Positions 13,896 to 34,326 of a stretch of DNA of 64,000 nt are shown piece after piece. This DNA comes from Opitutaceae bacterium. GTDB lineage: Bacteria; Verrucomicrobiota; Verrucomicrobiia; Opitutales; Opitutaceae. Position numbers and translations under genes: made by a program. Within the stretch, counting starts at the first letter, position 1, and the number at the start of each line of letters is the position of its first letter. The notes under the pieces were generated by a model. It saw only the letters and a list, made by a program, of their open reading frames with translations. It ran no database searches and was not told the DNA's origin. Location: positions 62,001 through 126,000 of the forward strand of contig JAUSID010000139.1 in assembly GCA_030648295.1 (NCBI GenBank). Reading direction: 5' to 3'.

Positions 13896-13935
13896 AGGAA
13901 AAGTTGTATGAAGCGCATGAAACAAGCGCTTGCCG

Positions 13936-15344: not shown

Positions 15345-16661
15345 CTATTGCTCGGTTGGTTTGAGATACCAGCGCGCGGCCAAAGGATTGTGGTGCACGA
15401 AGTCGAGAAGCAGCTGCGCGACCTTGCGGCGGCCGGAATCGTTGCCGGTGAAGTTGAACGCGTCACCGTCGGACCGATACCGCGCCTTCTCCATTTCCTG
15501 CGCCGGAGGTCCGCTCGGATGGGAACCGTCATCTGGCCGCAAATCCTCGCGCAGCCAGACAAGCCCATCGGCACGCGGCTTGACGCCGTCGGTCCAAAGA
15601 TACGGGCCCCAAACCACCGCAGGCGCTTTGACGGCCCCTTTCGCCGGGTCAAAGTTTAGTTGAGGATCGCCCTTCATCTGCGCCTGGATGATCCAGCGCA
15701 TCGCGAAAGCCCCCTCGTACGCATACGGCTCGGGATTTTGCGGGGTCAGCGCGTAGCCGGCGTAGATCCGACTCGCGAGATAGACAACGCGGCAGTTGGG
15801 ATGTCGCTCGCGCAGGAGATGCAGCGTCTTGATGGTGTTGTCCGCCAGCACGCGCGCGTGCGCCGGAAATTCGCCGAGCTGGCGTGGATTGCCCTGCGCG
15901 TGCTTGATCCAGGCCACCTGCACCTGCCTGGTCGTCACACCGGCCAACTTCAGCCGTTCCTCGACCACGCGCCACGGACTTAGGCCCATTTCGCGATCCA
16001 CCCAGATGGACGCTGCGCGGCCGGATTGCGCGCCATTGACGACGACGACGTGCGGTGATTTTCGTGGATCGACTTTGGCGAAATCCTCGAACTGCGCGAA
16101 CTCGACCGACGCGTTCGACATGCCGATGGAGAGGAAAACAATTTTGCCGTCCTTCGCTGGCCGACCCTCCGAGTCGAGCGGTGTAATCCTGGCCAGTTCG
16201 CGTTCCGCGGCCGCACGATGCGGGGCGGGCGGTTCGTTCCGGCCGCCGCCATACAATCCGCCGTCTTCTCCCTTGTAGGTTTGCGCGCCAAGCTCCGTGA
16301 GCGGAATCATTCCGGTAAAGTCGCGCGGGGGCGGTACCGGCCCTTTTTTTCCCTGATAGCGGTCGAGGTAGGCTTGTTCGTCGGCGGTCAGCGTTTCGCC
16401 CTTCTGGCGGCTGTGGCGCAGTTCGCGCGCACGATTGCGCTCCTCGACCTCGGCCTGTTCGTCGTCGGTCAGCGCTTCACCCTTCTGCAACTTCATCCGT
16501 AGGGCACGGGCGCGCTCTATTTCCGCGGGGTTTTCCTGCGCGATAACGCTGCCCTGTCCGCCGAGCGCCACCGCGGCAAGTGTTGCGGCGACGAGCACAA
16601 CGCGCGTCAGAGGCGCCGCGGCTCGATTTGTTGAGTTCCTAGTGAGTCGTTCGAGGTTCAT
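15345..16661 (-). CDS. Secreted SGNH-type esterase-like protein with two N-terminal helical modules
   Basis: The 438-residue product from ATG 16661 has a signal peptide (hydrophobic LTRVVLVAATLAAVALGG, cleaved near VIAQ). Two tandem copies of a short charged module follow at residues 43-107, with signatures KGEALTDDEQAE and KGETLTADEQAYLDRY. After the linker DFTGMIPLTELG and YKGEDGGLYGGGRN comes the main domain: FLSIGMSNASVEF as the probable serine block, VVVNGAQSGR, and a C-terminal NDSGRRKVAQLLLDF. It is paralogous to 30773-31927. The role is probably acyl-ester hydrolysis; family assignment is by motif layout only. Longer starts up to 16748 exist but read through the marR relic. Confidence 0.65.
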   Translation of the reverse strand: MNLERLTRNSTNRAAAPLTRVVLVAATLAAVALGGQGSVIAQENPAEIERARALRMKLQKGEALTDDEQAEVEERNRARELRHSRQKGETLTADEQAYLDRYQGKKGPVPPPRDFTGMIPLTELGAQTYKGEDGGLYGGGRNEPPAPHRAAAERELARITPLDSEGRPAKDGKIVFLSIGMSNASVEFAQFEDFAKVDPRKSPHVVVVNGAQSGRAASIWVDREMGLSPWRVVEERLKLAGVTTRQVQVAWIKHAQGNPRQLGEFPAHARVLADNTIKTLHLLRERHPNCRVVYLASRIYAGYALTPQNPEPYAYEGAFAMRWIIQAQMKGDPQLNFDPAKGAVKAPAVVWGPYLWTDGVKPRADGLVWLREDLRPDDGSHPSGPPAQEMEKARYRSDGDAFNFTGNDSGRRKVAQLLLDFVHHNPLAARWYLKPTEQ

Positions 16662-16719
16662 GCCGTTGCGATCATGGATGGTCTTGCTGGAGTGCGTCTC
16701 CGACATCGAAATGTGTTCA

Positions 16720-16830
16720 TCAGGTGTCATCGGGCTTGAGGTGCTCATGCAGGTTGTTGATTACGCGCGACAGAGCCGCGCGGATGCGACGGCCGGATTC
16801 ATGCGATGGGCCGCGACGCGAAGTCGTTCG
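16720..16830 (-). pseudogene. MarR-family regulator remnant (C-terminal end)
   Basis: The last codons read RRIRAALSRVINNLHEHLKP followed by DDT and a stop. This closely matches the C-terminus of the intact MarR protein at 28426-28923 (RRLRGDLSRVIHNLHEHLKP). Upstream residues (VAAHRMNPAVA) continue the match only after a frame change, and the DNA-binding domain is gone. It lies directly downstream of the first TonB receptor gene. Confidence 0.7.
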
Positions 16831-16850
16831 TTCGCCAACCAGTGGCACGT

Positions 16851-19800
16851 TCAGAGGCTCGCCTTGACCCCCGCCGTGACGACGGTGGACCAACCGTGCG
16901 TTTGGGCGCGGCGGTCTTCGGTCGCCCGGCCCGTATAGTTGGTGCGGTGGGATGGGCCAAGATTCACGGCATCCATGAACAACTGCAGCTTTCGGCTGAG
17001 CTTGTATTTCAAGAAAGCGTCGATCTGCGTCCGCCGGCCAAAAAAGACACTACCTGATGGGTCGTTCAAATCCAGACGGTCCAAGTACGTATCAGCGAAA
17101 TTCCAATCGAGCCGGACGTCCCAGCGGCCGTAGGCGTAGGACAGCCCGGCATTGCCCGTCTGCGGATTGAAATCAACGAGGGCGTTTTTGAACGGCAGTT
17201 TGACATTGCCGAGGGCTCCATAATTACCTCGTGTCGAAAGCGCGGTCCAGTTGAAGAACACGCCAAACCCCTTGAATACCCCCGGCAGGAATGTGAATTG
17301 CTGAGTGTAATTGAACTCGACGCCATCCACGCGCGCAGTTCCAGAATTCATTTTGGTGATCCCTTGCCAGCCCGCGAATTCCTCCAGGTCGAGGCCAAAT
17401 TCTTTGCCCGATATCGTGAAGGCCGTGGTGGTGACGTAATTCTTTATCGACTTTCTGAAGACGGACACCGAGACGACGCCCACCGGCTCGAAATAGTACT
17501 CCGCACTCAGGTCATAATTTTGCGAGCGTTGCGGTTTTAGGCCAGGATTGGCGAACGTCACGGTCGCATTTGTGTCGTTTTGGACGAAGCTGGTAGTCAG
17601 GTCCGCGATCGCGGGCCGGCCAATGGTGGTCGAATATGCCGCCCGGAAGAGGAGGCGTTTCCATGGTTCATACCGAAATTGCAAATTCGGAAACCAGTTC
17701 TTATATCCTGAATCAAACTCCCGGTATGAGCCGTAGCGAATCTCGGGTGTCGCGGCCGACGCGATATCGGAAGGAGTTTTCACCGCCACGTCGGTTCGCT
17801 CGTAACGGAGCCCCGCCGTCGTGCGCAAGGTGTCGGTCAACCGGAATACGCCCTGCACAAACGCCGCGGGAATTGTCTCCCGCGTCCAATAGGAGTCGCG
17901 CAGGCCATTTACGACGGTTTGGTCCGCGTTCAGCGTGACGAGATCCGGGTGAAATGAGAACTTCAGGCCCGGCCGGCCACCAATCCCCTCCGGTATATAG
18001 CGATAACCCGCGTCGCGAAAGAATCGGGCCGTATCGATTACGTTCGAATGCGGGTAGCGGCTCCCGACCCAGTCAAACGTGAAGTTACGATCCACATAGG
18101 TGCTAAAATTCGATCCAATCGCCCGGCCCTGATTGGTTCGCTCGCGGTGGTCCATGCGACGGTCGTGCCGAATCTGAAATCCGGTCTTGAGCAGCGTTGG
18201 AATGCGCAGGAGTTCAAAAGGCCGCTCGAGGGTGAGTCGTGCGCCCGGAATCTCGTTGGTCGTTCGGCGATGCTCGGCCGCCGGAGTGAGTTGCGCGTTA
18301 TTGAATGTGTTTGTGCGGTAATCGCGCCCACCTGTCTGCACCAGCGTGGGAAAATCGCGATTCGTGCGATCCCAGATGAACGCGATGTCGTCCAGGGTTT
18401 GCACTGTCGCGCCGCGTCGAATGTCATACCGTTCCGAGGTGGAATAAGTGAGATCCCAGCTGACCTTCACGCGCGATCCCGTCCAATCATGAGCGCCCTG
18501 AAGGCTCCAGCGCCATGTATCCGTAGGCCGATACACGAGATCATGGACGGCACCATAGCGCGCCCGATCGAACACCCAGACATCCTCGGACGAGCGCGTC
18601 AGATTGGGCACGGCATTGTTCATGAAGGTCGGCTGGAGCCGTTCCATGTTTTCCACGAGGCGCGTGAAACCCGCGGTGAATGACACGCGTGAGCCTTCGG
18701 AGAGTTTATAATCGACGCGCATGTTCGCTCCCGCGCGTTCCTGACGATGGAATTGATGGCTGGTGTAATTCACCCGCAGCGGACGCGAGGGACTGATGTA
18801 GTTCCAATTGGGTTGAAAAACCGCAAACACGGTCGCGCGAACCAAGCCATACACCTCGTTGTTGGCGACGAAAGTGACGCCAAGGTTTTGCTTCCCGCCG
18901 AGGACGCTCAGGGTGTCGCTGTACTGGAGCTTGAAGGACGGAAACAAGTACTCGCCATACGTAGGATCGAGTTTCCTGCCATACGTCGTGTTGTATGCGG
19001 CGGCGGCGCTAAGACTGATATGCCGACCCGCGCGATCAAAAGCACTCCTGGTCTTCAGATTGACGGTGCCACCGAGGGAATCCGCGGACATGTCGGCGGA
19101 TGGTGTTTTCACGATTTCGACACTCTCGATGAAATCGGCCGGGATGCCGCCCACAACCTGCGCGCGAGCTTCGCTCGCGCTGGCAATGGGAGTTCCGTCC
19201 ATGTTCAACACGGTGAAGTCAGGCGACATGCCGCGCAGGCTGATATTCTGAATTTCGACAGTGCTCGTCGTAACAGCCACACCAGGCAACCGTTGCATGA
19301 ACGCCCCGATATTCCCGTTGGCGATGGAGCCGAAGGCATCGGCGGCCACGACGTTCACGACGGAGATTTCACGCTCCTGTCGTGCGATAGCGGCCGCATT
19401 GCCTTCGCGCGTGCCGGCAATCGTAAGTTCTGGCAGGACATAGACGCCAGAGGTCAACCGGAAATCATGGACGCTGGCGGGAGCGCGCGCCAGATCTACG
19501 TCCGCGGTGCCGACGTCGAGCCCAGGATACGTTGCCCGGACCGAAAGCGGTCCGAGAGGAAGATGGGACAGAACATAGGTGCCCTCCTTTGACGTATACG
19601 CCACCTGGCTGGTGCCCACGACGCTGACCGTGGCACCTTCCAGGTATTCACCCGTCGCGAGGTTGGAGACGCGGCCGCGCAGCATACCACCAACCGACGC
19701 CGCAAGGGAACCCGGCTCCGCCGATTGGGCGTTGGCGCGCATGGCCAGGGCCGATAGGAGGGTTGCGCCCAGGATGGCGACACAGGGCAGCCGGTACAGC

Positions 19801-19892
19801 ATGCGACCGTGCCGTTCGAAGCGGGAAACCCATTCACGCACTCTCACCGCAAAACCAGGGAAAGCCCTGTACTTTGAAACATGGCGATTCAT
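16851..19892 (-). CDS. TonB-dependent outer-membrane receptor with carboxypeptidase-regulatory-like domain
   Basis: The product has about 1013 residues from ATG 19892. A signal peptide precedes a carboxypeptidase-regulatory-like domain (LRGRVSNLATGEYLEGATVSV). A plug domain follows (VVAADAFGSIANGNIGAFMQRLPGV, with ISLRGMSPDFTVLNMDG), then a long beta barrel with repeated aromatic Y-R-Y type strands. This architecture is typical of receptors that import large glycan fragments or siderophores with TonB energy. The nearest neighbours are an SGNH esterase downstream and an alpha/beta hydrolase upstream on the other strand, so a carbohydrate ligand is likely. A start nine codons upstream is possible. 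Confidence 0.9.
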   Translation of the reverse strand: MNRHVSKYRAFPGFAVRVREWVSRFERHGRMLYRLPCVAILGATLLSALAMRANAQSAEPGSLAASVGGMLRGRVSNLATGEYLEGATVSVVGTSQVAYTSKEGTYVLSHLPLGPLSVRATYPGLDVGTADVDLARAPASVHDFRLTSGVYVLPELTIAGTREGNAAAIARQEREISVVNVVAADAFGSIANGNIGAFMQRLPGVAVTTSTVEIQNISLRGMSPDFTVLNMDGTPIASASEARAQVVGGIPADFIESVEIVKTPSADMSADSLGGTVNLKTRSAFDRAGRHISLSAAAAYNTTYGRKLDPTYGEYLFPSFKLQYSDTLSVLGGKQNLGVTFVANNEVYGLVRATVFAVFQPNWNYISPSRPLRVNYTSHQFHRQERAGANMRVDYKLSEGSRVSFTAGFTRLVENMERLQPTFMNNAVPNLTRSSEDVWVFDRARYGAVHDLVYRPTDTWRWSLQGAHDWTGSRVKVSWDLTYSTSERYDIRRGATVQTLDDIAFIWDRTNRDFPTLVQTGGRDYRTNTFNNAQLTPAAEHRRTTNEIPGARLTLERPFELLRIPTLLKTGFQIRHDRRMDHRERTNQGRAIGSNFSTYVDRNFTFDWVGSRYPHSNVIDTARFFRDAGYRYIPEGIGGRPGLKFSFHPDLVTLNADQTVVNGLRDSYWTRETIPAAFVQGVFRLTDTLRTTAGLRYERTDVAVKTPSDIASAATPEIRYGSYREFDSGYKNWFPNLQFRYEPWKRLLFRAAYSTTIGRPAIADLTTSFVQNDTNATVTFANPGLKPQRSQNYDLSAEYYFEPVGVVSVSVFRKSIKNYVTTTAFTISGKEFGLDLEEFAGWQGITKMNSGTARVDGVEFNYTQQFTFLPGVFKGFGVFFNWTALSTRGNYGALGNVKLPFKNALVDFNPQTGNAGLSYAYGRWDVRLDWNFADTYLDRLDLNDPSGSVFFGRRTQIDAFLKYKLSRKLQLFMDAVNLGPSHRTNYTGRATEDRRAQTHGWSTVVTAGVKASL

Positions 19893-20084
19893 GACGACAG
19901 GGGTAGCCGCGCAAGACACTCAAGGAGCCCGCGCGAGTGTGTTTCGTATGCGAATCAAATCAGCGCACGATTGGCGTGTCAAGGCTGCGCCGTTTAGCCT
20001 GATCGTCTGGCCCGGAGGAAACAACGCTCTGCGGGTCGGACGGAACAATGGAACAACGGAATGACGTGAAGAACGTGAGCAATT

Positions 20085-20113
20085 CTTATCTCGTCATTCC
20101 GGGACGCTATAAT
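20085..20113 (+). promoter_or_regulatory. Possible promoter (-10 TATAAT)
   Basis: A perfect TATAAT lies at 20108-20113, about 150 bases before the hydrolase at 20265. The -35 region (TTCTTA or CTTATC near 20083-20090) is poor. The call rests on the -10 box alone. Confidence 0.35.
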
Positions 20114-20264
20114 GGGGCGCGCGACGGTTATCGCCGCATTTCCCTGTATGATCCGAGGAGTTACTCGGTTCACCCGGGTGCTGACCGCGATGCCTGCGAA
20201 ACGGCTTGCGGTCGTCTTTCGCAGAGCTATTCGTCGGCTGAACAAAATCACTTACCAGGATCCT

Positions 20265-21281
20265 ATGATGAGGGCGGGCGTGGAAAAGTCGATGATCGCA
20301 ACGAATCGAATGCGCGGTGTCGCGCTCGCGACGGTCGTGCTCGCAATGGCAGGCATGGCATCAGCGGCGGAGCCTGAAGAAATCGCGCTTTGGTCCGGCA
20401 CCGCGCCCGGCTCCGAGCGCAGCACGCTCAAGGAGGAATATGAGAACCGGCCTATCACCGACGGTACGGCTACGGTTCGCGACCGCTCCGTCAAAGGCGT
20501 TACGAAACCATCGATGACGGTTTACCTGCCGGATAATGGGCAGCGCGTCCGGACGGCAGTTCTTCTTTGTCCGGGCGGAGCTTTCAGCCACCTCGCAATC
20601 GACAAGGAGGGCCATGATGTGGCGCGGTGGCTGGCTGCAAAGGGAATCGCGGGCATCGTGCTCAAGTACCGCATGCCCGATCGGGAAGCGCAGGTATACG
20701 TTCGGAACGGCGCGGTTCTCGACGTGCAGCGCGCGATCCGTTTGATCCGCCACCGGGCGGGGGAGTGGAATCTGGCGTCGGACCGGATCGGCGTAATGGG
20801 CTTTTCGGCGGGAGGTTATCTGGCAGCCCTGGCGGGGACGCTCTTCGACACGGGCAACCCGCAGGCCGCGGATCCTGTGGAACGGGAGAGCTGCCGGCCC
20901 GACTTCATCACGCCAGTGTACCCGCTCATCTCGCTGTCTCTCCACGCGTCGAGAGGACCGGGACTGATCGCATCCATGCTCGGCCCGGACGCACCGCAGG
21001 AACTGCTGGACGAGTTTTCGCCAGACATGCGCGCAAAGCCCCGCGCCTCGCCCACGTTTCTGGTGCATGCCGCCGATGACAACCTTTCGGCCGAACATAG
21101 CCTCCGCTTCTCGCTGGCCTTGCTTCGAGCCAAAGTTCCGGTGGAACTGCACCTCTACGCGACCGGCAGACACGGGTTCGGTATCCGCGAGCGTGGCCTG
21201 CCGGTATCTGCATGGAAGGATCGCTGGTTCGTGTGGCTCACAACCACTGTGTTTCCCAACGGCGAAAACGCGACACGATGA
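20265..21281 (+). CDS. Secreted alpha/beta hydrolase of the BD-FAE/acetylxylan-esterase-like type
   Basis: The 338-residue product starts at ATG 20265, preceded by AGGA (20257-20260); a second ATG directly follows. The signal peptide is MRGVALATVVLAMAGMASAA. The fold is shown by LLCPGGAFSHLAIDKEGHDV (oxyanion loop), the serine elbow MGFSAGGYLAAL, LVHAADDNLSAEHS with the acid, and GRHGFGIRERG with the histidine. Proteins of this layout deacetylate or deferuloylate hemicellulose and are often annotated endoxylanase-like. It is the only plus-strand protein gene of the island core and runs convergent with an esterase relic. Confidence 0.8.
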   Translation: MMRAGVEKSMIATNRMRGVALATVVLAMAGMASAAEPEEIALWSGTAPGSERSTLKEEYENRPITDGTATVRDRSVKGVTKPSMTVYLPDNGQRVRTAVLLCPGGAFSHLAIDKEGHDVARWLAAKGIAGIVLKYRMPDREAQVYVRNGAVLDVQRAIRLIRHRAGEWNLASDRIGVMGFSAGGYLAALAGTLFDTGNPQAADPVERESCRPDFITPVYPLISLSLHASRGPGLIASMLGPDAPQELLDEFSPDMRAKPRASPTFLVHAADDNLSAEHSLRFSLALLRAKVPVELHLYATGRHGFGIRERGLPVSAWKDRWFVWLTTTVFPNGENATR

Positions 21282-21339
21282 AACCGTCCGGCCGAGATTG
21301 CGGGGCGGTGCAGCGTGCGTCGTGGCGGAGCCCATTTCC

Positions 21340-21590
21340 TCCGCCAAGGGCGACACCGGCGCAGTTCCCGTGCCGAGTTCCGTCACCGGAATTAGGCCGG
21401 TCGAGTCGGTTGGTGTTGGCGGCGGGCCCTTCTTTGCCTGATAGCGATCGAGGCATGCTTTTTCTTCCGCGGAAATCTCTTCGCCTTTGATCATCTGGCG
21501 CCGGATTTCGCGGGCGCGGACGCGTTCCTCGTAGTCGGCCTGGTACCGCTCGTTGGGCACGCTGCAAACGCCCAAGTATTCGGGGTCGTT
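21340..21590 (-). pseudogene. Truncated SGNH-type esterase relic (module and linker only)
   Basis: The frame from about 21587 reads ...NERYQADYEERVRAREIRR, then KGEEISAEEKACLDRYQAKKG and TDSTGLIPVTELGTGT. This is the same module plus linker found at the N-terminus of the SGNH proteins at 15345-16661 and 30773-31927. There is no signal peptide, no good start codon (only TTG 21575) and no catalytic domain, because the convergent hydrolase gene takes over. It follows the sulfatase at 21616 closely. Confidence 0.6.
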
Positions 21591-21615
21591 GACGATGCCA
21601 CATCAGGTCACGACA

Positions 21616-23226
21616 TCACTTCGCGTTCGTTTTCTTCACCCAGTTCAATTCGACGCCCACTCGCCTGGCCCATGTCGCCCATCGGGTTGAAAGATCCCGT
21701 ACGAGTTCGGGCCGGGTGTGGGCGAGGTTGTGTTGTTCGGCGCGGTCGGTCCCCAGGTCATAGAGTTCCCACGGCTTGTCGGGTAACGAGACGAGCTTCC
21801 AATTGCCCTGCCGCACGGCACGATCCTTATGATATTCCCAGAATATCGTGTCGCGGACAACGGGACGCTGGCCCTGTAATATAGCCACCAGGGAGGTACC
21901 TTCGAACGGATGAACTGACTGCTCCCGGAAGGTTTTAGGATACTGCGCACCGGCCAGTTCCAGGCACGTCGGCATGATATCCATGACGTGGCAAACGTCA
22001 TGTTTTATGCCTTGCGGCCGAATGCCGCGCGGCCAGCAGAACACCGCCGGAGTGGCAATGCCGCCTTCATAGCACGTGTCCTTGTATCCATAGAATGGCG
22101 TGTTGCTGGCGTCGGCCCACGGCGCATCGTAGGTGTGAAACGACTCCATTGGACCGGGGCCGGTCAGCGAGGCATCGCCGGACCGGGTGCCATGATGATG
22201 AATACCGGCACAGGCCCCGTTGTCGGAAAGAAAAATAATCAGCGTGTTTTCCTCTTTCTTCAGCTCGCGCAATTTGACCAGCAGCCGGCCAATATTCTGG
22301 TCGACGCGGTCCACCATCGCCGCATAGACGGATATCTTGAGATCCCAATCGTCGTGTTCGGTGACGTCGTCCCAAGGCAGAATACTGCCTTCCGCGTCCG
22401 CGAAACGGGACAACCACGGTCCAGGGCCTCGCAGCGGGAAGCCAAACGCGCTATTGCCGCGTGGTGCCAACGGGAATGGCCGTGTAAACAACTTCATGCT
22501 GGTCTGGCGGTCATGGCGGGCGAGCCTGACCTGGTCCCAACCCATCATATATTTGCCGCGGTATTTGGCTATATCTTCCGGCCATGCCTGGAGCGGGTAA
22601 TGCGGTGCGGTGTATGCCACATAAAGAAGGAATGGCTTGGCGTCCTTTTGCTCGGAGAGATACCGTAAGGCATAGTCAGTATAGGTATCTGTGCTATAGA
22701 ATTTGGGATCGTCAGGTGTATAAGGTATAAACACCCGGCCGTCGATCGCCCACTTGTGAGGCCCCCTTTCGAAAGCCGGTGGCGGTTCCCCGGGGCGCTG
22801 GCGGCCCGGATTAAAGTGATTCGCCGCGCCGTCGTTGAGTCCAAAATACCGCTCGAACCCGCGGTTGACCGGCAGATCCTCCCCATGCCACTTGCCGACC
22901 ATCCACGTGTGATAGTCCGCCGCCCGGAGGACTTCCGCGATCGTCACGCAGTGCGTGAACGTCAGCGGACTGCTGCCCATGCCCGCTTGGTGCGGATACA
23001 ACCCGGTCAGCAGCGAGGCGCGGGAAGGATAACACTTCGGTGTCGTGTAGAACTGGGAAAAACGTGCGCCGCGTGCCGCAAGCGAATCCAGATTGGGCGT
23101 CCGAATTTCGGAGCCGTAGCAGCCGATATCCGAGTAGCCCATGTCGTCGGCCAAAATGATAATGATATTCGGCCGGTCTGCGGCCGCCGCAGCGGCGATC
23201 AACATCAAAAAGAGAATCGTCTTCAT
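21616..23226 (-). CDS. Secreted arylsulfatase-family sulfatase (Cys type)
   Basis: The 536-residue product has the signal peptide MKTILFLMLIAAAAAA and the sulfatase start RPNIIIILADDMGYSDIGCYG, whose aspartates bind calcium. The formylglycine motif CYPSRASLLTG has its modified cysteine at about residue 65, so activity needs a maturase (FGE or anSME), which is not in the window. Further family blocks are VGKWHGEDLPVNRGFERYFG and LIIFLSDNGACAGIH. ATG 23226 gives a clean signal peptide ten bases after the preceding gene. It probably removes sulfate esters from a glycan or aryl substrate outside the cytoplasm. It is most like the third sulfatase at 28973-30577. Confidence 0.9.
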   Translation of the reverse strand: MKTILFLMLIAAAAAADRPNIIIILADDMGYSDIGCYGSEIRTPNLDSLAARGARFSQFYTTPKCYPSRASLLTGLYPHQAGMGSSPLTFTHCVTIAEVLRAADYHTWMVGKWHGEDLPVNRGFERYFGLNDGAANHFNPGRQRPGEPPPAFERGPHKWAIDGRVFIPYTPDDPKFYSTDTYTDYALRYLSEQKDAKPFLLYVAYTAPHYPLQAWPEDIAKYRGKYMMGWDQVRLARHDRQTSMKLFTRPFPLAPRGNSAFGFPLRGPGPWLSRFADAEGSILPWDDVTEHDDWDLKISVYAAMVDRVDQNIGRLLVKLRELKKEENTLIIFLSDNGACAGIHHHGTRSGDASLTGPGPMESFHTYDAPWADASNTPFYGYKDTCYEGGIATPAVFCWPRGIRPQGIKHDVCHVMDIMPTCLELAGAQYPKTFREQSVHPFEGTSLVAILQGQRPVVRDTIFWEYHKDRAVRQGNWKLVSLPDKPWELYDLGTDRAEQHNLAHTRPELVRDLSTRWATWARRVGVELNWVKKTNAK

Positions 23227-23236
23227 CGTGGGTTTC

Positions 23237-24676: not shown

Positions 24677-24859
24677 GGGCGGGCGGGAGGCAACGTGCGC
24701 AGTGGGTTGGGTCGGATTCATTGGGGCAAAATTCTGGAGAGCTTTTCGAATAAGCCGTTGACCACTCGGCGCCACTTTTCGGCAATCCGATTTGTTCGCG
24801 CAAACGGGAGCTGACGCGCTCGAACCGCTCGAAGCTTTTCCTGCGCGTCGTGCTATTCA

Positions 24860-27800: not shown

Positions 27801-28429
27801 CCGCCGCTGGCGATGCGGGTGCTCACCTCGTTCGTGTCGCGGAAGCGCGCCTTGATCAGGCCTTGGTTCGTCAGCCCGGCGGGCGAGCCCAGGCCAAAAA
27901 GGAACGAATTGGCACCGCGATTGATATCGACCCGATCGGTGTTGTAGGAATCGAAGGGAATGTCGGTCTTGAAAAAATCGCGCGCGCGATCCGGCGCGGC
28001 GAGTCCGCGGATGCGCGTTGTCCCGTCCGGATCGCGCCGCGCATCATCGATGTTCGCATCGCCGCGGGCGCTCGCGTCGTTCGAACCGGTGAAATTGCCG
28101 AGGATACCGCCGACTTCCGTGCTGGTCGTATATTGGAAAAGCTCCTCCACCCCGGTGACTCCGAGATCGTCCATGAGTTCCTTCGTCACGACCTGAATGG
28201 ATGAGCCGATATCCTTGATATCCTGGCGCAGGCGCCCGCCTGCGAGCGTCTGCGAGGCGTAGTAGCCTTGTCCGGGTTTTTCATCGACGACAAAGGGTGA
28301 AAGCTCGATCGCCGGTTCGAGTCGCGGCGGGTCCGCTTCCTTGCCACTGGGCTGCGCGAACGCCAGCTCTAACCAGCCCAGGCACACCAGGGAGGTAGCC
28401 GAAACGAGTTTCGTGCAATCGAATTTCAT
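24860..28429 (-). CDS. TonB-dependent outer-membrane receptor
   Basis: The 1189-residue protein has a signal peptide (MKFDCTKLVSATSLVCLGWL...AFA). A short TonB-box-like segment follows (IELSPFVVDEKPGQGYYASQ). The plug domain reads LRQDIKDIGSSIQVVTKEL, then TTRIRGLAAPDRARDFF and VDINRGANSFLFGLGSPAG. A long beta barrel ends in a typical aromatic residue (LEILLTNTFRF). The PFVVDE...GY.AS.TLAGTR-like start is common in Verrucomicrobiota receptors. Its ATG overlaps the marR stop by four bases and two sulfatases follow, so it most likely imports a desulfated glycan fragment. Confidence 0.92.
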   Translation of the reverse strand: MKFDCTKLVSATSLVCLGWLELAFAQPSGKEADPPRLEPAIELSPFVVDEKPGQGYYASQTLAGGRLRQDIKDIGSSIQVVTKELMDDLGVTGVEELFQYTTSTEVGGILGNFTGSNDASARGDANIDDARRDPDGTTRIRGLAAPDRARDFFKTDIPFDSYNTDRVDINRGANSFLFGLGSPAGLTNQGLIKARFRDTNEVSTRIASGGKNPSYRGSFNLNRVLIKDTLAIHGAVLLDRTQYRQQPTYKDDARQYGAVAYRPFKNQDTVITAHVENGRIRGNAPGVLLPKQNLDTFFDYAPVARLSIDPYANLQRFGNVNGPTQVQWNALSAAEKLKFRVRDTVTPTSMGNANWGNGSYGLVYDGSTGARPAFAYTAQYRANDYAVGDPFFNPTRVARAAPFNTYPNNRSQINGVGWLVQGFTDLKTFDFSKQNLGWANDYYTRDFVNYNVGLTQVLWDGRAGFDVAYDYQDLFKRDFTAFEIGTARIYFDMNETLFLPSDPNYRTSGVVAAMPNPNYGRPFVITEATPRTYDTQREAARFTGFIKFDFAEKTKARQWLGKLLGRHTLTGLADKSTFDEKQISYSLSSFGDPEPALHIGPPNARLANGNARRVQLMSYIGPAQLDAFTNPNFKLGDFVLTPAKYQLGLPADYSIQKLSWNLGPDVTAANLGQASVVNGNEGFVLGTFTPRYVPSSNYRLQQTKVTSFAVNGQSFFWDRLLVVNTGYRQDTVKTWLNTQAPLLGPDEIPDVSPEGFSLENGSFLKIKSSVFGYGGVLNWPSQLIKLPWGGNLALHYNTSENFVPATDRVDQFHRPLSSPSGRSKDYGVSVFLWDNKVVARFNWYNSRLAGATSNVSQLFNQMFGNIFQHHGFLNADILRVDANNDGAIDDAVKNQIAVNAATGLTPDGLTRDQAAARFYPNLTKARAARASMESYLTDELKTAYNFKVLADGSNTILGDPRGVSDTNDIEAKGFEAELTFNPTPNWRIAFNAARQETILTDIAPGLTDVIEKTWLPHLTQYGDLDWDLPVGPVNGVTINQQVAVRFVDYFAVKGQEGRPQIEQRKWRLNMVTRYSFSEGRLKGFSIGGALRWEDRFANGYPIYTDPNGVVLPDISKPYFSEATTSCDLMFGYRRRIMGNKDWTAQLNARNLQNWSGDRVSVISRQPDGSIARVRFDPALEILLTNTFRF

Positions 28430-28923
28430 GGTTCGGGGTCTGCAGGTTTCAGGTGCTCGTGCAAGTTGTGGATGACGCGGGAGAGATCGCCGCGCAGCCG
28501 GCGCGCAGCAACCGGCGTGAATCCGTGCTCCAACACCTCCCGCATCTGCGCTGCGACCGCCTGGCAGCGCGGCTCGAGGCTCCGCGCTTTTCGCGTCAGG
28601 CTGATTCGCACGGCCCGCTTGTCCACTGCGTCCCGCACGCGCGATATGAGTCCCTCGCGTTCCAGGCCTTGGACGGTCTCGGTTACCGATGATGGAGCCA
28701 GGCCGGTCCGCGCCGTAAGATCGCGCAAGGTCAAATTATCTTCGGTGAAAAGAGCAAAGAGCAAATGGCCCATGCCCGGCCGAATATGTTCCGCCAGCCC
28801 ATCGGCCTCCAGTTGCTCTTGCAAAAAGACAATGTAATTCAGGTAGACGCGCCCGATCAATACCCAGAGATCATCGGAGGCCTTCGCCGGAGTGGCAATC
28901 AGGTGGCGTTCCTTGTAGCGCAT
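28426..28923 (-). CDS. MarR-family transcriptional regulator
   Basis: The 165-residue winged-helix regulator has the core MGHLLFALFTEDNLTLRDLT, the recognition region TGLAPSSVTETVQGLEREGL and the wing ISRVRDAVDKRAVRISLT, all typical of MarR. It starts MRYKERHLIATPAKASDDL and ends HEHLKPADPEP. The stop overlaps the ATG of the TonB receptor gene, so regulator and receptor should be translated together. MarR proteins usually repress their own operon and release DNA on binding a small, often aromatic or phenolic ligand. The ligand here is unknown. A decayed relative lies at 16720-16830. Confidence 0.9.
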   Translation of the reverse strand: MRYKERHLIATPAKASDDLWVLIGRVYLNYIVFLQEQLEADGLAEHIRPGMGHLLFALFTEDNLTLRDLTARTGLAPSSVTETVQGLEREGLISRVRDAVDKRAVRISLTRKARSLEPRCQAVAAQMREVLEHGFTPVAARRLRGDLSRVIHNLHEHLKPADPEP

Positions 28924-28972
28924 GACGATTGGCAGCGGGGGGCGGCAGTGCTGGTCGAATCCGGGTGCCTGC

Positions 28973-30577
28973 TCAGCGGCTGCCGGTCAGCGACGGTTTC
29001 CGCGTCGATTCGCGAGCCTTGGTTTCGCCAATCCACATCTGCCATTCGCGTTTCAATTCTTCAGCGACGCGCGGATACTCGTCGATCACGTTGTCGGTTT
29101 CCGTCTGATCATGGGAGACATCGTAAAGCTCCCAAGGCTCGTTGTTGTCCGACACCAATTTCCAGTTGTCCTTCCGGATGGCTTTGCCATTGGCCCACTG
29201 CCAATAGAGCGGCTTTCCCCGGACCGGAAGGCGGTGATCGAACAATGGCGCAAGATTGATTCCATCCATCGCTTCGACCTCCTCTCCTTTTCGGTTGTGG
29301 GTCGGGTAGGACGCTCCGATGAGGTGCAGAAGGGTCGGCATGATGTCGATGAGATGGGCGGGAAAGGCGGTGATGCGCCCCGGCTGCCGAATCTTGTCCT
29401 TCCACGATACAATCAGCGGAGTGGCAATTCCTCCCTCGTGACTGTCCGCTTTGTACAAGCGAAAGGGCGTGTTGCTCACATTCGCCCAGGAGAGGTTCAA
29501 CGAAGTCCACCGCCCGACGCTCCCGATCGGCAGCGACGGATCCGATTCCTTGCCCCTCGCCCAAAGCCAGGATTGGGGATCGGACTGTGATTGCGCGCCG
29601 TTGTCCGACATGAAGAGGATTATCGTGTTTGCGAGCTGGCCGAGTTCCTCCAGCTTGCCCAGCAGCCGGCCGATATTCTGGTCCACCCGATCAATCATCG
29701 CGGCGTAGGTGGCCATGATTGCATCCCGTGCCGCCTTTTCCTCCGCGAAGAGCTTCGCCCAGTCTTCGTAAGTGGGTGCGGACAGCGGATAGGTGCGATC
29801 GAGCATTCCCATCTCCACCTGCCGCTCGTAACGTTTGCGGCGAATCGACTCGTATCCTTCCATATAGCTGCCGATGTATTTTTTGATGTCGGCCGGCCAC
29901 GCCATCAGCGGGTCATGTGGAGCGGTGTAGGCCACATAGAGAAAGAATGGCTTTGATTCGCCTTTATACTGATCGAGAAAACCAATCGCATGGTTGGTGA
30001 AATAGTCGGTGGAATAGAAATCCCCTTCCTCGGGCGTGTAGGGCGTCCGGATCTCATGGTCGATGCCCCACTTCCGTTCTCCGAAATTGCCCTGCTTGTT
30101 TGCCGGCACGGGTTCGCCGGCGCGCCGCTTGCCGGGATTGAAATGATTGGAGGCACCATCCATCAGTCCCCAATATCGATCGAACCCGAACCGGACCGGG
30201 TTTTCCTCACCGTGGTGCTTCCCGGTCATCAACGTGCGGTAGCCCGAATTTTGCAGGACTTCAGCGACGGTGACCGCGTTGGTGAACGACAACGGCTTGT
30301 CGCCCATGCCGACCCGTTGCGCATACTGGCCCGTCAAAAGGCAGGCGCGGGACGGAAAACATTTGGCGGTATTATGAAACCGGCTGAACCGAAGCCCATT
30401 CCTGGCGAGCCGATCCAAATTGGGTGTCGCGATTTCCCCGCCATAGCAGCCGATGTCCGAGAAGCCCATGTCATCGACCATGATCATGACGACGTTTGGC
30501 CGCTTGTCGTCCTTGCCGTGGGAAAGGACAGTCACGACAATCGAAAACAGAAGGACATGGATCTTAGCCGGAGCCAT
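28973..30577 (-). CDS. Secreted arylsulfatase-family sulfatase (Cys type)
   Basis: The 534-residue product from ATG 30577 begins MAPAKIHVLLFSIVVTVLSH as a signal peptide. It continues RPNVVMIMVDDMGFSDIGCYG. The active-site motif KCFPSRACLLTG has the formylglycine cysteine at about residue 73. The blocks MTGKHHGEENPVRFGFDRYWG, YVAYTAPHDPLMAWP and IILFMSDNGAQSQSD follow the arylsulfatase pattern and are closely similar to the sulfatase at 21616-23226. A much longer frame upstream lacks a signal peptide and is disfavoured. It lies 49 bases upstream of marR in the same operon. Confidence 0.9.
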   Translation of the reverse strand: MAPAKIHVLLFSIVVTVLSHGKDDKRPNVVMIMVDDMGFSDIGCYGGEIATPNLDRLARNGLRFSRFHNTAKCFPSRACLLTGQYAQRVGMGDKPLSFTNAVTVAEVLQNSGYRTLMTGKHHGEENPVRFGFDRYWGLMDGASNHFNPGKRRAGEPVPANKQGNFGERKWGIDHEIRTPYTPEEGDFYSTDYFTNHAIGFLDQYKGESKPFFLYVAYTAPHDPLMAWPADIKKYIGSYMEGYESIRRKRYERQVEMGMLDRTYPLSAPTYEDWAKLFAEEKAARDAIMATYAAMIDRVDQNIGRLLGKLEELGQLANTIILFMSDNGAQSQSDPQSWLWARGKESDPSLPIGSVGRWTSLNLSWANVSNTPFRLYKADSHEGGIATPLIVSWKDKIRQPGRITAFPAHLIDIMPTLLHLIGASYPTHNRKGEEVEAMDGINLAPLFDHRLPVRGKPLYWQWANGKAIRKDNWKLVSDNNEPWELYDVSHDQTETDNVIDEYPRVAEELKREWQMWIGETKARESTRKPSLTGSR

Positions 30578-30772
30578 GCAGGGGAGGTGGCGCGGCTTGC
30601 TCCTCAAGCCGCTTTTTTCGAGTGAACAGTCCAAGGGCGTTGAGGAGCAACGCACACCACCATTCAGTAGATTCGATTGCATCGGTGGAATGCGCTCCGA
30701 CTGCATCGTTCCAGCTTGATCATGATTGAACGGGGATGGCAAAAGTCCAAATCGCGGCGGCATCCCATGGTT

Positions 30773-31927
30773 CTACCGCGCGGCTTTCCCGACAAACCAT
30801 GGCCGGGCGGTCGGATCGGTGGTTAGAAATTTGATCAACTGATCAGCCACTTTGCGCCGGCCGAGTTCCGAGAGGTGGGTGCCGCCGGTATTGGCGTCCT
30901 CCCGCTTCCACACCAACTCGTCAAACTTCCGGCCTTTCTCACCGTCAGCCCACAGATACGGCCCCCACAACAACAGCGGAGCCTTGCCCTCGGTATAACG
31001 GAGTGCCGCGTTGCCTCCGATTTGGTCTTGGATAAGCCAGCGGATGGTGAAGGCGCTCTCGTAGGCGTAGGGTTCCGGATTCAACGGGCCGCGGGCGTAA
31101 CCGGCGTAGGTCCGGCTGGAGAGATACGCGATCCGCAGGTTCGGGAACCGCTGCCTGAGCAGTTGGAGAACCTGCGCCATATCGTCCTTCAACACCTGTG
31201 CGTGCCCGGGAAATTCGCCGAGTTCCGACGGCATGGCTCGCGCGTGCTTGACCCACGCGGCCTGCACCTGGAGCGGTGAAACACCGGCCAATTGAATGCG
31301 CTCATCGACCGTTTGCCATAATTGGGTGCCACGCAATTCACCGGACACCCACCGAGCCGCGTCGGCGCCGCCGATGGCACAGTCGACGAGGACCAAGGCG
31401 GGGTTTTTGCGCCGATCGGCGTTGGCTACCTCGATGAAGGTCTGCGACTCCTGGGTGGTGTTCGACATCCCGTGGGTAATCATGACGATCTTTCCGCTCG
31501 CAGACGGCCTGCCCGAGGTGTCGAGCGGTTGGATCTTGGCGGCTTCCGCCATCGCGGCCCGCAGATGCACATCGGACGGCCCGTTCCGGCCGCCACCATA
31601 TAGCCCGCCGTCTTCGCCTTTGTAGCGCTCGGTCGAGTTCATGTCCGTTAGAGGCACAAAGCCACGAAACGGCTTGCCGGGATCGTCCTTCGGCGCGGTG
31701 GTGTGCTTGGGACTTTGCGCTTTTTCGCCGCCACGCGCGGCCATTGCCCGATCCAAATATATCTTTTCCTCGGGCGTGAGCGGCTTGCCACTTTTCGATT
31801 TCTGACGGATCTCCCTGGACTTCTGGAGGTCGATCGGTTCGTCGGCGGCGCGGACGGCACCGAACGTCATGGCGATCAGCAGGGCGGCTGACCCAATGAC
31901 AATTTTGAAGCCGTGTCTATGATTCAT
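30773..31927 (-). CDS. Secreted SGNH-type esterase-like protein with N-terminal helical module
   Basis: The 384-residue product has a signal peptide (FKIVIGSAALLIAMTFGAVRA). One copy of the charged module lies at residues 29-67 (DEPIDLQKSREIRQK, KPLTPEEKIYLDRAMAARGG). The linker FRGFVPLTDMNS and the YKGEDGGLYGGGRNGP block follow. The main domain has ITHGMSNTTQESQTF (probable serine block), LVDCAIGGADAARWV and a C-terminal HLSELGRRKVADQLIKF with a candidate catalytic histidine. It parallels 15345-16661 throughout. It starts 12 bases after the upstream esterase ends, so it is in the same operon. Hydrolysis of acyl esters on glycans is plausible but unproven. Confidence 0.65.
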   Translation of the reverse strand: MNHRHGFKIVIGSAALLIAMTFGAVRAADEPIDLQKSREIRQKSKSGKPLTPEEKIYLDRAMAARGGEKAQSPKHTTAPKDDPGKPFRGFVPLTDMNSTERYKGEDGGLYGGGRNGPSDVHLRAAMAEAAKIQPLDTSGRPSASGKIVMITHGMSNTTQESQTFIEVANADRRKNPALVLVDCAIGGADAARWVSGELRGTQLWQTVDERIQLAGVSPLQVQAAWVKHARAMPSELGEFPGHAQVLKDDMAQVLQLLRQRFPNLRIAYLSSRTYAGYARGPLNPEPYAYESAFTIRWLIQDQIGGNAALRYTEGKAPLLLWGPYLWADGEKGRKFDELVWKREDANTGGTHLSELGRRKVADQLIKFLTTDPTARPWFVGKAAR

Positions 31928-31939
31928 GGCGACGATTTC

Positions 31940-33082
31940 CTATTGTTTCGCGCCCTTTGCCTCTCCGCCGCCGCGCGCTGCCATCGCCCGATCCAAATAT
32001 GCTTTCTCCTCCGGCGTCACGGGCTGGCCGCTCCGGGTTTTCTGTCGGATTTCTCTGACCTTCTGCATGTCGATTGGGTCGGCCCCCGCTTCGCTGACCA
32101 ATGCGTTGGGCACCACCGCTGTCCGAGGCGGCGGTTGCGCACGCGGCAGGTGTCGATTGAACCACTGTACGCTCTCACGTGCGTAAAGACGCGCCCGCTC
32201 CGGATCCCCAAACGTCGGACCGTGTGTTCCTCCCTCAATCCGCACCAGCTTGGCCTCAACGCCGGACTTCCGCAGAACGCGCTCGAAAAGTTCCGCCTGC
32301 GCGAACGGAACGGTCGTGTCCGCGTCGCCATGCACCAGCAGGAATGCAGGGTCATCCGCGGACACGTAGGTGAATGGGGACACCTCGCAATAACGTCGGT
32401 TGGCGGGCGACGCGGGATCTTCATCCATCGGCATGCCGACGAATTTCACCACTTGCGGCACTTGCGGCATCAGGCGAAGGTCGCTGGGAGTTGCGCGCGC
32501 GACGACCGTCTGCACCTTCGCACTTTCCCGCTCGATGGGATTTGCAGCCTTGGAATCACCATGCCCATCAAGCACACCGAGCATGCTCACGAGGTGCCCA
32601 CCAGAAGATCCACCGATCGCCCCTATCCGGTCGGGGTCAATGCCGTATTCTCGCGCATTGTGCCGTATGAAACGCACCGCCCGCTGCACGTCCTCCACCG
32701 CGGCTGGATAAGGGAAGGCCGAAGACCCACGATGGTTTACGCAGAACACATTGTACCCCTCCTTGACCAGCGCCGACACCTCCGCCGAGTTTCCGGTCCC
32801 CCGCTTCAACTGCGGCGCATCATAGCCGGGACCGCCCGCTTGCCAGCCACTCCCTTTGATGTGAATCACTCCAAACCCGTTGGACTGCGCAGGACGATAT
32901 ACATCCATCAGCAACGCGAGCCCAGAGTACATGCCGTAGACCACGTTGTTTTCCGTCGGAGTCTGCGCGTGGACGGGGCCCAAGCTACCTATAATCATCG
33001 CCGCCAAGGCGAGGACGGAAACGACGACCGTCCGGATTTCCCATCGGCTACGACGGATGGGACACTCGCTATATGTAGTCAT
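31940..33082 (-). CDS. Secreted BD-FAE-like alpha/beta esterase with C-terminal helical module
   Basis: The 380-residue product from ATG 33082 has a signal peptide (VVVSVLALAAMIIGSLGPVHA). Its hydrolase fold shows IHIKGSGWQAGG as the oxyanion loop, NHRGSSAFPYPAAVEDVQRA, the elbow IGGSSGGHLVSML, LLVHGDADTTVP with the acid and EGGTHGPTFGD with the histidine. After the fold, near the C-terminus (31967-32080), it carries the same charged module that other island proteins carry at their N-terminus: DPIDMQKVREIRQK and PVTPEEKAYLDRAMAARGG. The module's position at the other end of the protein is unusual. Confidence 0.75.
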   Translation of the reverse strand: MTTYSECPIRRSRWEIRTVVVSVLALAAMIIGSLGPVHAQTPTENNVVYGMYSGLALLMDVYRPAQSNGFGVIHIKGSGWQAGGPGYDAPQLKRGTGNSAEVSALVKEGYNVFCVNHRGSSAFPYPAAVEDVQRAVRFIRHNAREYGIDPDRIGAIGGSSGGHLVSMLGVLDGHGDSKAANPIERESAKVQTVVARATPSDLRLMPQVPQVVKFVGMPMDEDPASPANRRYCEVSPFTYVSADDPAFLLVHGDADTTVPFAQAELFERVLRKSGVEAKLVRIEGGTHGPTFGDPERARLYARESVQWFNRHLPRAQPPPRTAVVPNALVSEAGADPIDMQKVREIRQKTRSGQPVTPEEKAYLDRAMAARGGGEAKGAKQ

Positions 33083-33183
33083 GGTTGGAAGCGGAGATTC
33101 AAACTGGTTGGTGGAAATATGATTTTGATAGCGGCTGGCGACAAGTGGCACCGCTCAAGAAAACAGGGATTTCCGGCCAGACA

Positions 33184-34326
33184 CTACTTATTCCCTTTTT
33201 CAACTCCCGGGCCAACCGACACCTGCTTGATCAGCGACTTGTCCAGCGGCTTCGGTTGCGTCGGCAGGTTTTTCTTGATGAAGGCGTGACTGTCGTTGAA
33301 GCACTTTCGGGCCGCCTCGGGGGTGCCACGGCCCCAGTAAAATCCGTGCGGCTGCTCTGGGTAGATGATCACCTCGACATTCTTCTCCGCCACTTTCAGC
33401 TCCGGGATGATGATCTCGTGGTTGATCTTTTTGAGCGGGTGCTGGTCACCGTGCACGATGAGAACGGGACAGGCGATCTTGCGAATCTTCGCGCGAGTGA
33501 AATTCTGGAGTTCGGGGGTGTAGAAGGACTTCGGGTTCTCCATGATCGTCATCAAACCCCGGTTATCCTTGGTCATCATACCGGTGAATAGCACGCTTGC
33601 CGGCTCGCCTGCCACAACGGCGCAGAGCTTCGCTTCACCGGCCAACTCCAGCGCCAGACTGCCGCCACCGCTGCCGCCAAAAAGGACCACGCTCTTCGGG
33701 TCCACCTCGGGCATTTTCTTGACGTGCGCGATGATCGCCAGGCAATCGACGAGCGCATCCCGTGTCTGTGGGTCGTCCCGCCTGCTGCGGAACGTGGCGT
33801 TGACCACCACATACCCGGCGGCGAGAAACCGGCCCCGAGTCGGCTGATTCCGCGACTCCGTCTGCAACTCTTGCACGTCGTGCTGCCCCAATCCGCCGTG
33901 CAGGAACACGATGGCCGGGAACGGCCCTTGGCCGGGCGGCTTGCGGACTACTGCCAGAGCCTTGTTCTTGTCTGCAGTCGGCACCTCGATGACTTCCAGC
34001 GGGCAGGCCTTTTCGGAAACCGTGAAGACTTCGGACGCGCCACCCTTCACTTCGCGCGTGGCCCGATTGAGTTCATCATCAACCGCGGACGGTTGCTTGG
34101 ATAGCGGCGGGCCGCGCTCTTTCTGACGGGCATTCCGTGCTTCAACGCCGCGATCGTAATAGGCTTGTTCTTTCGCCGACAACTTCTCGCCCTTCTGCAC
34201 GCGGCCGCGCAGCTCACGCACCCGCTGCATGTCGATCGGATCGTCGGCCGCAAGCGCGTCCACCGTGATGGTCAAACAAAGCAAGACGCCGGTACAGATG
34301 GCCCAAATTCCGTGGTGCGTTTTCAT
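33184..34326 (-). CDS. Secreted alpha/beta hydrolase with N-terminal helical module
   Basis: This 380-residue paralogue of the two hydrolases at 12873-14937 differs by an extra module between signal peptide and core. The signal peptide is MKTHHGIWAICTGVLLCLTI. The module at residues 28-67 reads DDPIDMQRVRELRGR and KLSAKEQAYYDRGVEARNAR. The hydrolase core has IVFLHGGLGQHDVQEL, the elbow FGGSGGGSLALELAG, LIVHGDQHPLKKIN and QPHGFYWGRG with the histidine. It lies within the island's minus-strand operon between two other esterases. Its substrate is unknown; de-esterification of a glycan is inferred from context. Confidence 0.8.
   Translation of the reverse strand: MKTHHGIWAICTGVLLCLTITVDALAADDPIDMQRVRELRGRVQKGEKLSAKEQAYYDRGVEARNARQKERGPPLSKQPSAVDDELNRATREVKGGASEVFTVSEKACPLEVIEVPTADKNKALAVVRKPPGQGPFPAIVFLHGGLGQHDVQELQTESRNQPTRGRFLAAGYVVVNATFRSRRDDPQTRDALVDCLAIIAHVKKMPEVDPKSVVLFGGSGGGSLALELAGEAKLCAVVAGEPASVLFTGMMTKDNRGLMTIMENPKSFYTPELQNFTRAKIRKIACPVLIVHGDQHPLKKINHEIIIPELKVAEKNVEVIIYPEQPHGFYWGRGTPEAARKCFNDSHAFIKKNLPTQPKPLDKSLIKQVSVGPGVEKGNK

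Follow-up and report, generated by a model that had tools for sequence, protein, structure and literature searches.

A predicted helical hairpin from an SGNH-esterase family that also sits at the ends of alpha/beta hydrolases in an Opitutaceae gene cluster

Introduction

Why should the same short charged segment stand at the start of one secreted esterase and at the end of another? This question is raised by a stretch of 64,000 nucleotides from an Opitutaceae bacterium (GenBank assembly GCA_030648295.1, contig JAUSID010000139.1, positions 62,001 to 126,000 of the forward strand), referred to here as the window. In it, a segment of approximately 38 residues, the module, recurs in genes for SGNH proteins and for alpha/beta hydrolases. 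A preliminary description had regarded the module as a shuffled docking or anchoring unit shared by unrelated secreted hydrolases.

Our data indicate that the module is, with high probability, a genuine conserved mini-domain that recombines between proteins, because it is recovered in the window by a profile built only from other genomes, is predicted to form a hairpin, belongs mainly to one host family and, over three gene pairs together, is more strongly conserved than the adjoining linkers. Its main home is an uncharacterised family of SGNH esterases in Verrucomicrobia, Planctomycetes and their relatives, in which it forms the N-terminal segment.

Results

The window was searched with a profile hidden Markov model (HMM) of 55 module copies, all from other genomes, and the target was its 1145 six-frame segments of at least 30 amino acids. 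Six matches were found, every one on the minus strand, with E values from 3e-16 to 2e-4. The only further stretch reported had E 64, and the best score in five residue shuffles was E 0.17. One match lies directly after the signal peptide of SGNH protein 2 (31733..31846, E 2.3e-15); signal peptides were judged by eye throughout. Another forms the C-terminus of a BD-FAE-type alpha/beta hydrolase, esterase 1 (31973..32083, E 3e-16), and a third follows the signal peptide of a second alpha/beta hydrolase, esterase 2 (34132..34248, E 5.5e-15). SGNH protein 1 has a tandem pair (first copy 16443..16535, E 1.7e-7; second copy 16359..16436, E 3.2e-10). The weakest match is in a decayed SGNH relic (21444..21518, E 2.0e-4), the frame of which runs on into an SGNH-1-like linker and then, as judged by eye, loses the SGNH family motifs.

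These are the six copies in five genes that had been noticed before, each found again within six residues, the tandem pair and the relic included, and the profile matched no random charged linkers in the window. The two paralogues of esterase 2 at 12873..14937 (minus strand), which share 54-58% identity with it in the catalytic region, gave no match, as the preliminary description had held. There was also no match in the gene at 34400-35395.

The consensus of the module is xxxPIDxxRARxLxxRxQxGExLTxEExAYLxRAxxAR. Its strong columns are I5, D6, A10, L13, G20, L23, E27, Y30 and A34. The charged pattern first described was thus recovered, except that its initial acidic-Pro pair is weak. Basic residues are conserved at columns 9, 11, 16 and 33, aromatic conservation is limited to columns 7 (F/W/M) and 30 (Y), and the mean net charge is +0.8.

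In the AlphaFold2 (AF2) model of SGNH protein 2, made with 53 sequences, the module region contains helices at residues 34-45 and 52-71. The predicted local distance difference test score (pLDDT) is 90, 95 and 94 in successive blocks of residues 31-60 and 70 for residues 61-70, falls below 50 at residues 71-81 and is mostly above 90 in the catalytic domain. The 63-residue C-terminal tail of esterase 1, modelled with module segments as the alignment, has helices at 22-34 and 40-54 (pLDDT blocks of 87-91 for residues 21-50, mean 73.7, predicted TM-score 0.46). The module is therefore predicted to be a two-helix hairpin, consisting of a helix, a Gly-Glu-x-Leu-Thr turn and a helix, followed by a low-confidence linker. 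These models agree with the earlier suggestion of a helical hairpin outside the catalytic folds, and the module is not predicted to be disordered. We read D6 as an N-cap, I5, A10, L13, L23, Y30, L31 and A34 as the core, G20-E21 as the turn and T24-E27 as a cap. By eye, the tandem copies of SGNH protein 1 lie so near to each other that a single stretch serves both as helix 2 of the first and as helix 1 of the second.

Comparison of 61 module copies with Pfam and NCBIfam gave no convincing model match. The Pfam scan, taken to E 10, listed 12 families, none of them convincing. In the NCBIfam scan, DUSAM (TIGR02267) was listed for two of the 61 copies (best E 0.032) and the YihI model for eight (best E 0.0057); the YihI matches probably arose by chance. 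When PDB sequences were searched with the module profile, 28 came up at E values to 10; the top one was a uronate isomerase (E 0.0044 over 23 residues), which was set aside as a chance helix-turn-helix. Foldseek with the hairpin returned nothing below E 3. Literature searches found no paper containing any of three module peptide strings and none containing the phrase 'DUSAM domain', and combined-term searches found no publication whose listing mentions the module.

A scan of GTDB species genomes for relatives of the SGNH proteins found 550, of which the best-scoring 80 were analysed. The module is carried by 70 of these 80 loci, corresponding to 72 of 85 SGNH open reading frames (ORFs), with one copy in 60 ORFs, two in 9, three in 2 and four in 1. 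Some of the copies in the profile used for this count came from these 80 loci; with an earlier 24-copy profile, which included few of them, the count was 69 of 80. No ORF lacking an SGNH domain carries the module around the 80 loci, in DNA up to 4 kb on either side. The titles of the loci are mostly Planctomycetota and Verrucomicrobiota, and also Sumerlaeota, Lentisphaerae, Armatimonadetes and others; Chthoniobacter flavus, Singulisphaera acidiphila and Brevifollis are represented.

The module was below threshold in 10 of the 80 loci. By eye, two of them keep a degenerate copy and in five no module is visible; in locus L081 a long unrelated stretch precedes the SGNH domain. A relative on a linear plasmid of Streptomyces zaomyceticus (L233, 2980-3981) has a signal peptide and then the catalytic domain, without the module. 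Since some members lack it, the module is optional in the SGNH family and, as judged from these sequences, dispensable for the catalytic fold. The last two of the ten loci (L148, L160) were seen to have a different N-terminal domain instead of the hairpin, with no Pfam family at cut-off there. The SGNH family was also noticed on Streptomyces plasmids, where seven records annotated as hypothetical protein were matched; the one that was read is the module-free protein above.

The SGNH proteins share YKGEDGGLYGGGRN- and WGPYLWADG-like motifs. In an alignment of 53 members, S155 and H351 never vary, and D348 is conserved in at least 90% (numbering of the window protein 30773-31927). We read these three as the probable catalytic residues, S155 presumably being the block-I Ser and D348 and H351 the block-V Asp and His of the SGNH fold. 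Foldseek with the AF2 model of SGNH protein 2 gave 18 matches at E <=0.001, to acylhydrolases, a GDSL-like lipase, sialate O-acetylesterases and other esterases, the query TM-scores being just 0.28-0.36. The fold match and the conserved Ser, Asp and His place the host protein in the SGNH fold. Pfam SASA (PF03629) and GDSL (PF00657) were under cut-off or absent in the SGNH members scanned, so the host family has no catalogued name.

The distribution of the module was followed further in sets of genomes. In the four largest of these searches at most 19 to 35 candidates were scored per genome, and their counts are lower bounds. Nine of 57 related genomes, including its own, had matches at E <=0.001, and all 12 matches outside its own genome were in SGNH proteins. 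In a draw of 387 genomes of the phylum, at least 18 had such matches, its own included. Five of the other 17 gave strong matches, all in SGNH proteins, and 12 gave weak ones (7e-5 to 9e-4). The weak matches of ten genomes were dropped as frames of other proteins (by our naming uronate-isomerase-like and others). Two short frames in genomes of the same class contain weak module-like stretches (E 9e-4) and could be relics.

At E <=1e-5 the module was found in at least 12 of 392 Planctomycetota genomes, at least 11 of 213 genomes of the order of genome G442, at least 17 of 320 of the order of G437 and 2 of 40 genomes of the phylum to which G435 belongs (each count including the centre genome). 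In four of the 12 Planctomycetota genomes the matches are weak throughout (3e-6 to 8e-6) and lie in other proteins, and three loci with weak Planctomycetota matches encode one secreted-looking protein type. All strong matches that were read out are SGNH proteins or truncated SGNH starts, except for two, L180 and L197.

Several other hairpins came to light in these searches. In one Planctomycetota genome (G484), KSGEELTDEEKAKL-type hairpins give weak module matches at two loci, which encode basic secreted-looking proteins and a repeat-type protein with ELLEKRKSGEELTDEEKAKL-type hairpins, in tandem or inserted. The latter are possibly a second family of mobile short hairpins. Domain shuffling is held to be important in Planctomycetes (PMC8567305). 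A beta-helix-like protein of G437 (by eye; no Pfam match) has a weak module-like hairpin after its signal peptide (E 1.5e-4).

The window is part of contig C265 of a 9.1-Mb assembly. A search of the whole assembly with the 24-copy profile found 17 places at E <0.001, the next being at 0.02. Six are in C265, five whole copies and two halves of one frame-broken copy are in contig C214, and two each are in C7 and C163, where the module is N-terminal in SGNH proteins. C214 carries a second version of the cluster, with both SGNH proteins, esterase 1 with its C-terminal module and esterase 2 with its N-terminal module, and also sulfatases and receptor-like genes (frames read by eye). The window gene 34400-35395 has a decayed relative in C214, and the frame-broken module copy stands ahead of that relative. 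The cluster is thus doubled in the genome (window 15345-35395 and C214 about 44900-68100), with approximately 73-76% protein identity for the pairs compared. The two versions have decayed differently, one SGNH gene in the window and one esterase gene, which is frame-broken, in C214. Elsewhere in the genome, a large secreted-looking protein of contig C198 contains, shortly behind its signal peptide, a GEPLTASERAAVDAAL segment with weak similarity to the module (E about 0.4 to 1.7), which is probably a separate hairpin.

The module occurs in its own genome on two families of alpha/beta hydrolases, at the C-terminus of esterase 1 (31940..33151, minus strand; Pfam BD-FAE 1.6e-44) and at the N-terminus of esterase 2 (33184..34326, minus strand; Pfam DLH 3.7e-11, Peptidase_S9 6.5e-10), and likewise in their C214 paralogues. 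When the two esterases are compared by BLASTP the module alone aligns, C-terminus to N-terminus (41 residues, 46%, E 1e-8). In L180, from a Spartobacteria record, the module is at the N-terminus of a BD-FAE-type hydrolase. In L197, from a Sumerlaeota-titled metagenome-assembled genome that is possibly mixed, it is at the C-terminus of a protein of the esterase-2 family. This protein is 46% identical to esterase 2 of the window and 44-45% identical to the two paralogues without the module. Therefore, with identities of 44-58% among these proteins, the module can be N-terminal, absent or C-terminal within one family. A tree of this family with six rows needs three label changes, with weak support, and does not settle the number of gains. 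A same-genus relative of esterase 2 (L162, 1129-2334) was observed to have an EF-hand pair (PF13202, E 3.6e-9) in the N-terminal slot of the module, and the N-terminus of esterase 2 may be an interchangeable slot for a hairpin or an EF-hand pair.

The shuffling proposed in the preliminary description is borne out, in that the module moves between enzyme families and between termini. Its sharing among unrelated hydrolases holds for the two alpha/beta-hydrolase families and is uneven, the copies on esterases being exceptions to the SGNH N-terminus.

The origin of the C-terminal copy can be approached from its neighbours. Relatives of esterase 1 with 39-48% identity match it up to about residue 338, ahead of the module, and the two that were read end without a module. 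The end of the esterase 1 gene is 12 bases from the start of the SGNH 2 gene, the modules of the two proteins are 78% identical, and some likeness continues past the module. Most simply, the 5' part of the SGNH gene would have been duplicated locally and joined to the end of the esterase gene. Such a duplication would predate the doubling of the cluster, because the C214 cluster has the same arrangement. The module of esterase 1 in the window is nearer to that of SGNH protein 2 (78%) than to its C214 counterpart (70%). This fits the duplication account less well, and a later exchange within the cluster is possible.

Constraint was assessed for SGNH2, esterase 1 and esterase 2, each compared across its C265 and C214 versions; SGNH1, in which no linker was measured, was left out. 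The module differed at 24 of 108 residues and the linkers at 39 of 75 (three gene pairs pooled, Fisher p 4e-5). Over the three gene pairs together, the module is more strongly conserved than its own linkers. The pooled ratio of nonsynonymous to synonymous substitution rates (dN/dS) was 0.14 for catalytic parts, 0.23 for modules, 0.31 for linkers and 0.35 for signal peptides, and for the module of each gene it was 0.10 (esterase 1), 0.15 (SGNH2), 0.32 (SGNH1) and 0.36 (esterase 2); these ratios are rough, since dS is high (0.3 to 1.7) and the stretches are short. The C-terminal module of esterase 1, with dN/dS 0.10, compares with 0.39 for its own linker, and is kept at 72% identity beside an adjoining linker that is down to 36%.

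The remaining genes of the window locus are also on the minus strand. SGNH protein 1, with two modules, is encoded at 15345..16748 (likely start 16661), and SGNH protein 2 at 30773..31927 consists of the signal peptide, module, low-confidence linker and SGNH domain. Between these genes, at 16851..30763, are two TonB-dependent receptor genes, three sulfatase genes and a MarR regulator gene, all without the module. The MarR-type regulator gene (28426-28923) is inside the cluster and is flanked by sulfatase and TonB-receptor genes.

Discussion

What the module does is best read, at roughly even chances, as an attachment or association tag, or a localisation tag. This reading follows from its form as a two-helix bead on a low-confidence linker, its tolerance of either protein end, its tandem copies and its optional presence. 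It also follows from the carriers, which are esterases with apparent signal peptides, clustered in this genome with sulfatases and TonB-dependent receptors. Repetition and placement at both termini fit a binding unit. The module would be native to an exported SGNH esterase family, with one to four beads placed between the signal peptide and the catalytic domain. In this genome, short recombination would have copied it onto neighbouring esterase genes, once at the C-terminus and at least once at the N-terminus. After export, the hairpin on its flexible linker might make non-covalent contact with a shared partner, which could be a component of the cell envelope or another copy of the module. This contact might keep the esterases of one gene cluster together or near the cell. 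A more specific version, that the module is a calcium-independent docking code of Planctomycetes-Verrucomicrobia-Chlamydiae (PVC)-type bacteria, in which an SGNH-derived two-helix tag with up to four repeats would bring secreted esterases together on one shared scaffold of the envelope, much as dockerins do with cellulosomal enzymes, is unlikely.

Several points weigh against a tag. None of the lines of evidence points to a particular partner or receptor, no known docking domain was matched significantly, in fold or in sequence, in the Pfam, PDB sequence and Foldseek searches, and the profile search of the window found no module on the sulfatases of the cluster. Fusions are rare beyond its own genome, with two strong ones among the strong matches read. 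The query of the SGNH scan itself bears the module, which may have lifted carriers in the ranking, and their share may be lower than 70 of 80. The constraint could stem from folding and stability alone, as most conserved columns are explicable as caps, turn and core. It is also uneven: adding the SGNH1 module (44% differing, 56% identity) brings the differing residues to 38 of 140, the pooled module dN/dS of 0.23 over four genes is intermediate between 0.14 for catalytic parts and 0.31 for linkers, the esterase 2 module (0.36) exceeds its own linker (0.24), and the SGNH1 module is at 0.32.

The chief rival to the tag is a passive spacer or an aid to export or folding. The N-terminal part of the SGNH protein would help export or distance the catalytic domain from the membrane, and the copies on esterases would be accidental duplications of the 5' end with no function. 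Nearly all strong matches that were read out belong to one SGNH family at one position, and the 12 bases between esterase 1 and SGNH 2, with 78% module identity, are what a local duplication predicts. However, the C-terminal copies of esterase 1 have been kept beside a decaying linker, at low dN/dS. Help in export is unlikely from a C-terminal placement, and neither the separate fusions in two other genomes nor tandem copies of up to four are expected of a spacer. We consider this explanation somewhat unlikely.

Attachment to a substrate is another way to account for esterases that lie in a cluster with sulfatases and TonB-dependent receptors. A module like a carbohydrate-binding module (CBM) could hold the esterases to an acylated or sulfated polysaccharide, and the tandem copies and the basic columns 9, 11, 16 and 33 are consistent with it. 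A helical hairpin of 38 residues with conserved aromatics at columns 7 and 30 alone and a mean net charge of just +0.8 is less so, and the sulfatases lack the module; a CBM-like role is improbable. The position between signal peptide and catalytic domain might instead suggest an inhibitory or activating pro-region, or a lid, acting on the SGNH active site. This is very improbable, because the module is joined to the catalytic domain by a low-confidence linker (residues 71-81, pLDDT <50), is optional in the SGNH family and occurs also on a different fold, at the opposite end.

Our study describes a short domain together with the esterase family that hosts it, and for neither did a Pfam or NCBIfam model reach cut-off in the members scanned. 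It also provides a natural experiment, in which a single enzyme family has members that lack the module, members with an N-terminal copy and members with a C-terminal one. If the docking tag is true, it would show how these bacteria hold the secreted enzymes of one cluster together.

Among known systems, the SHOCT domain (PF09851) is nearest in kind. SHOCT is an amphipathic helical hairpin of about 30 residues with a strongly conserved glycine and glutamate, its helices and loop are free of insertions and deletions, and it is found repeatedly at the ends of proteins with many different neighbouring domains, localisation being one proposed role (PMC3581485). In the same paper, SHOCT did not pass a test for self-association. 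The module is also a short two-helix amphipathic hairpin (AF2; amphipathicity by eye). However, none of the 61 copies lists SHOCT in the Pfam scan to E 10, in which HMMER filters drop most weak matches. The SHOCT model matches this genome once at E <=0.1, in contig C64 and on no module copy. Alignment of the module with that sequence by hhalign covers six columns with a probability of 1.2%, and the turn is, by eye, longer by one residue in the module (GExLT) than in the C64 sequence (GILT). SHOCT is mostly C-terminal, whereas the module is mostly N-terminal. Membership is therefore not supported, on the model match, the turn length and the missing full-length hhalign alignment. By the tests run, the module is itself uncatalogued, similar in kind to SHOCT without being a member.

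The SASA and GDSL esterases (PF03629, PF00657) resemble the catalytic host and not the module. Dockerins are small modules at either terminus of secreted hydrolases, and the calcium-binding loop of dockerins and EF-hands is DxDxDG. No EF-hand family is among the 12 Pfam families listed for the 61 copies, and the module consensus has no calcium-loop aspartates; on these two grounds membership is not supported. Foldseek lists the dockerin structure 1ohz_B at E 5.4, which is not significant. Dockerins are nearest to the module in proposed role, though not in sequence: both stand at either terminus of secreted hydrolases, and the EF-hand pair of L162 occupies the very slot that the module holds in esterase 2.

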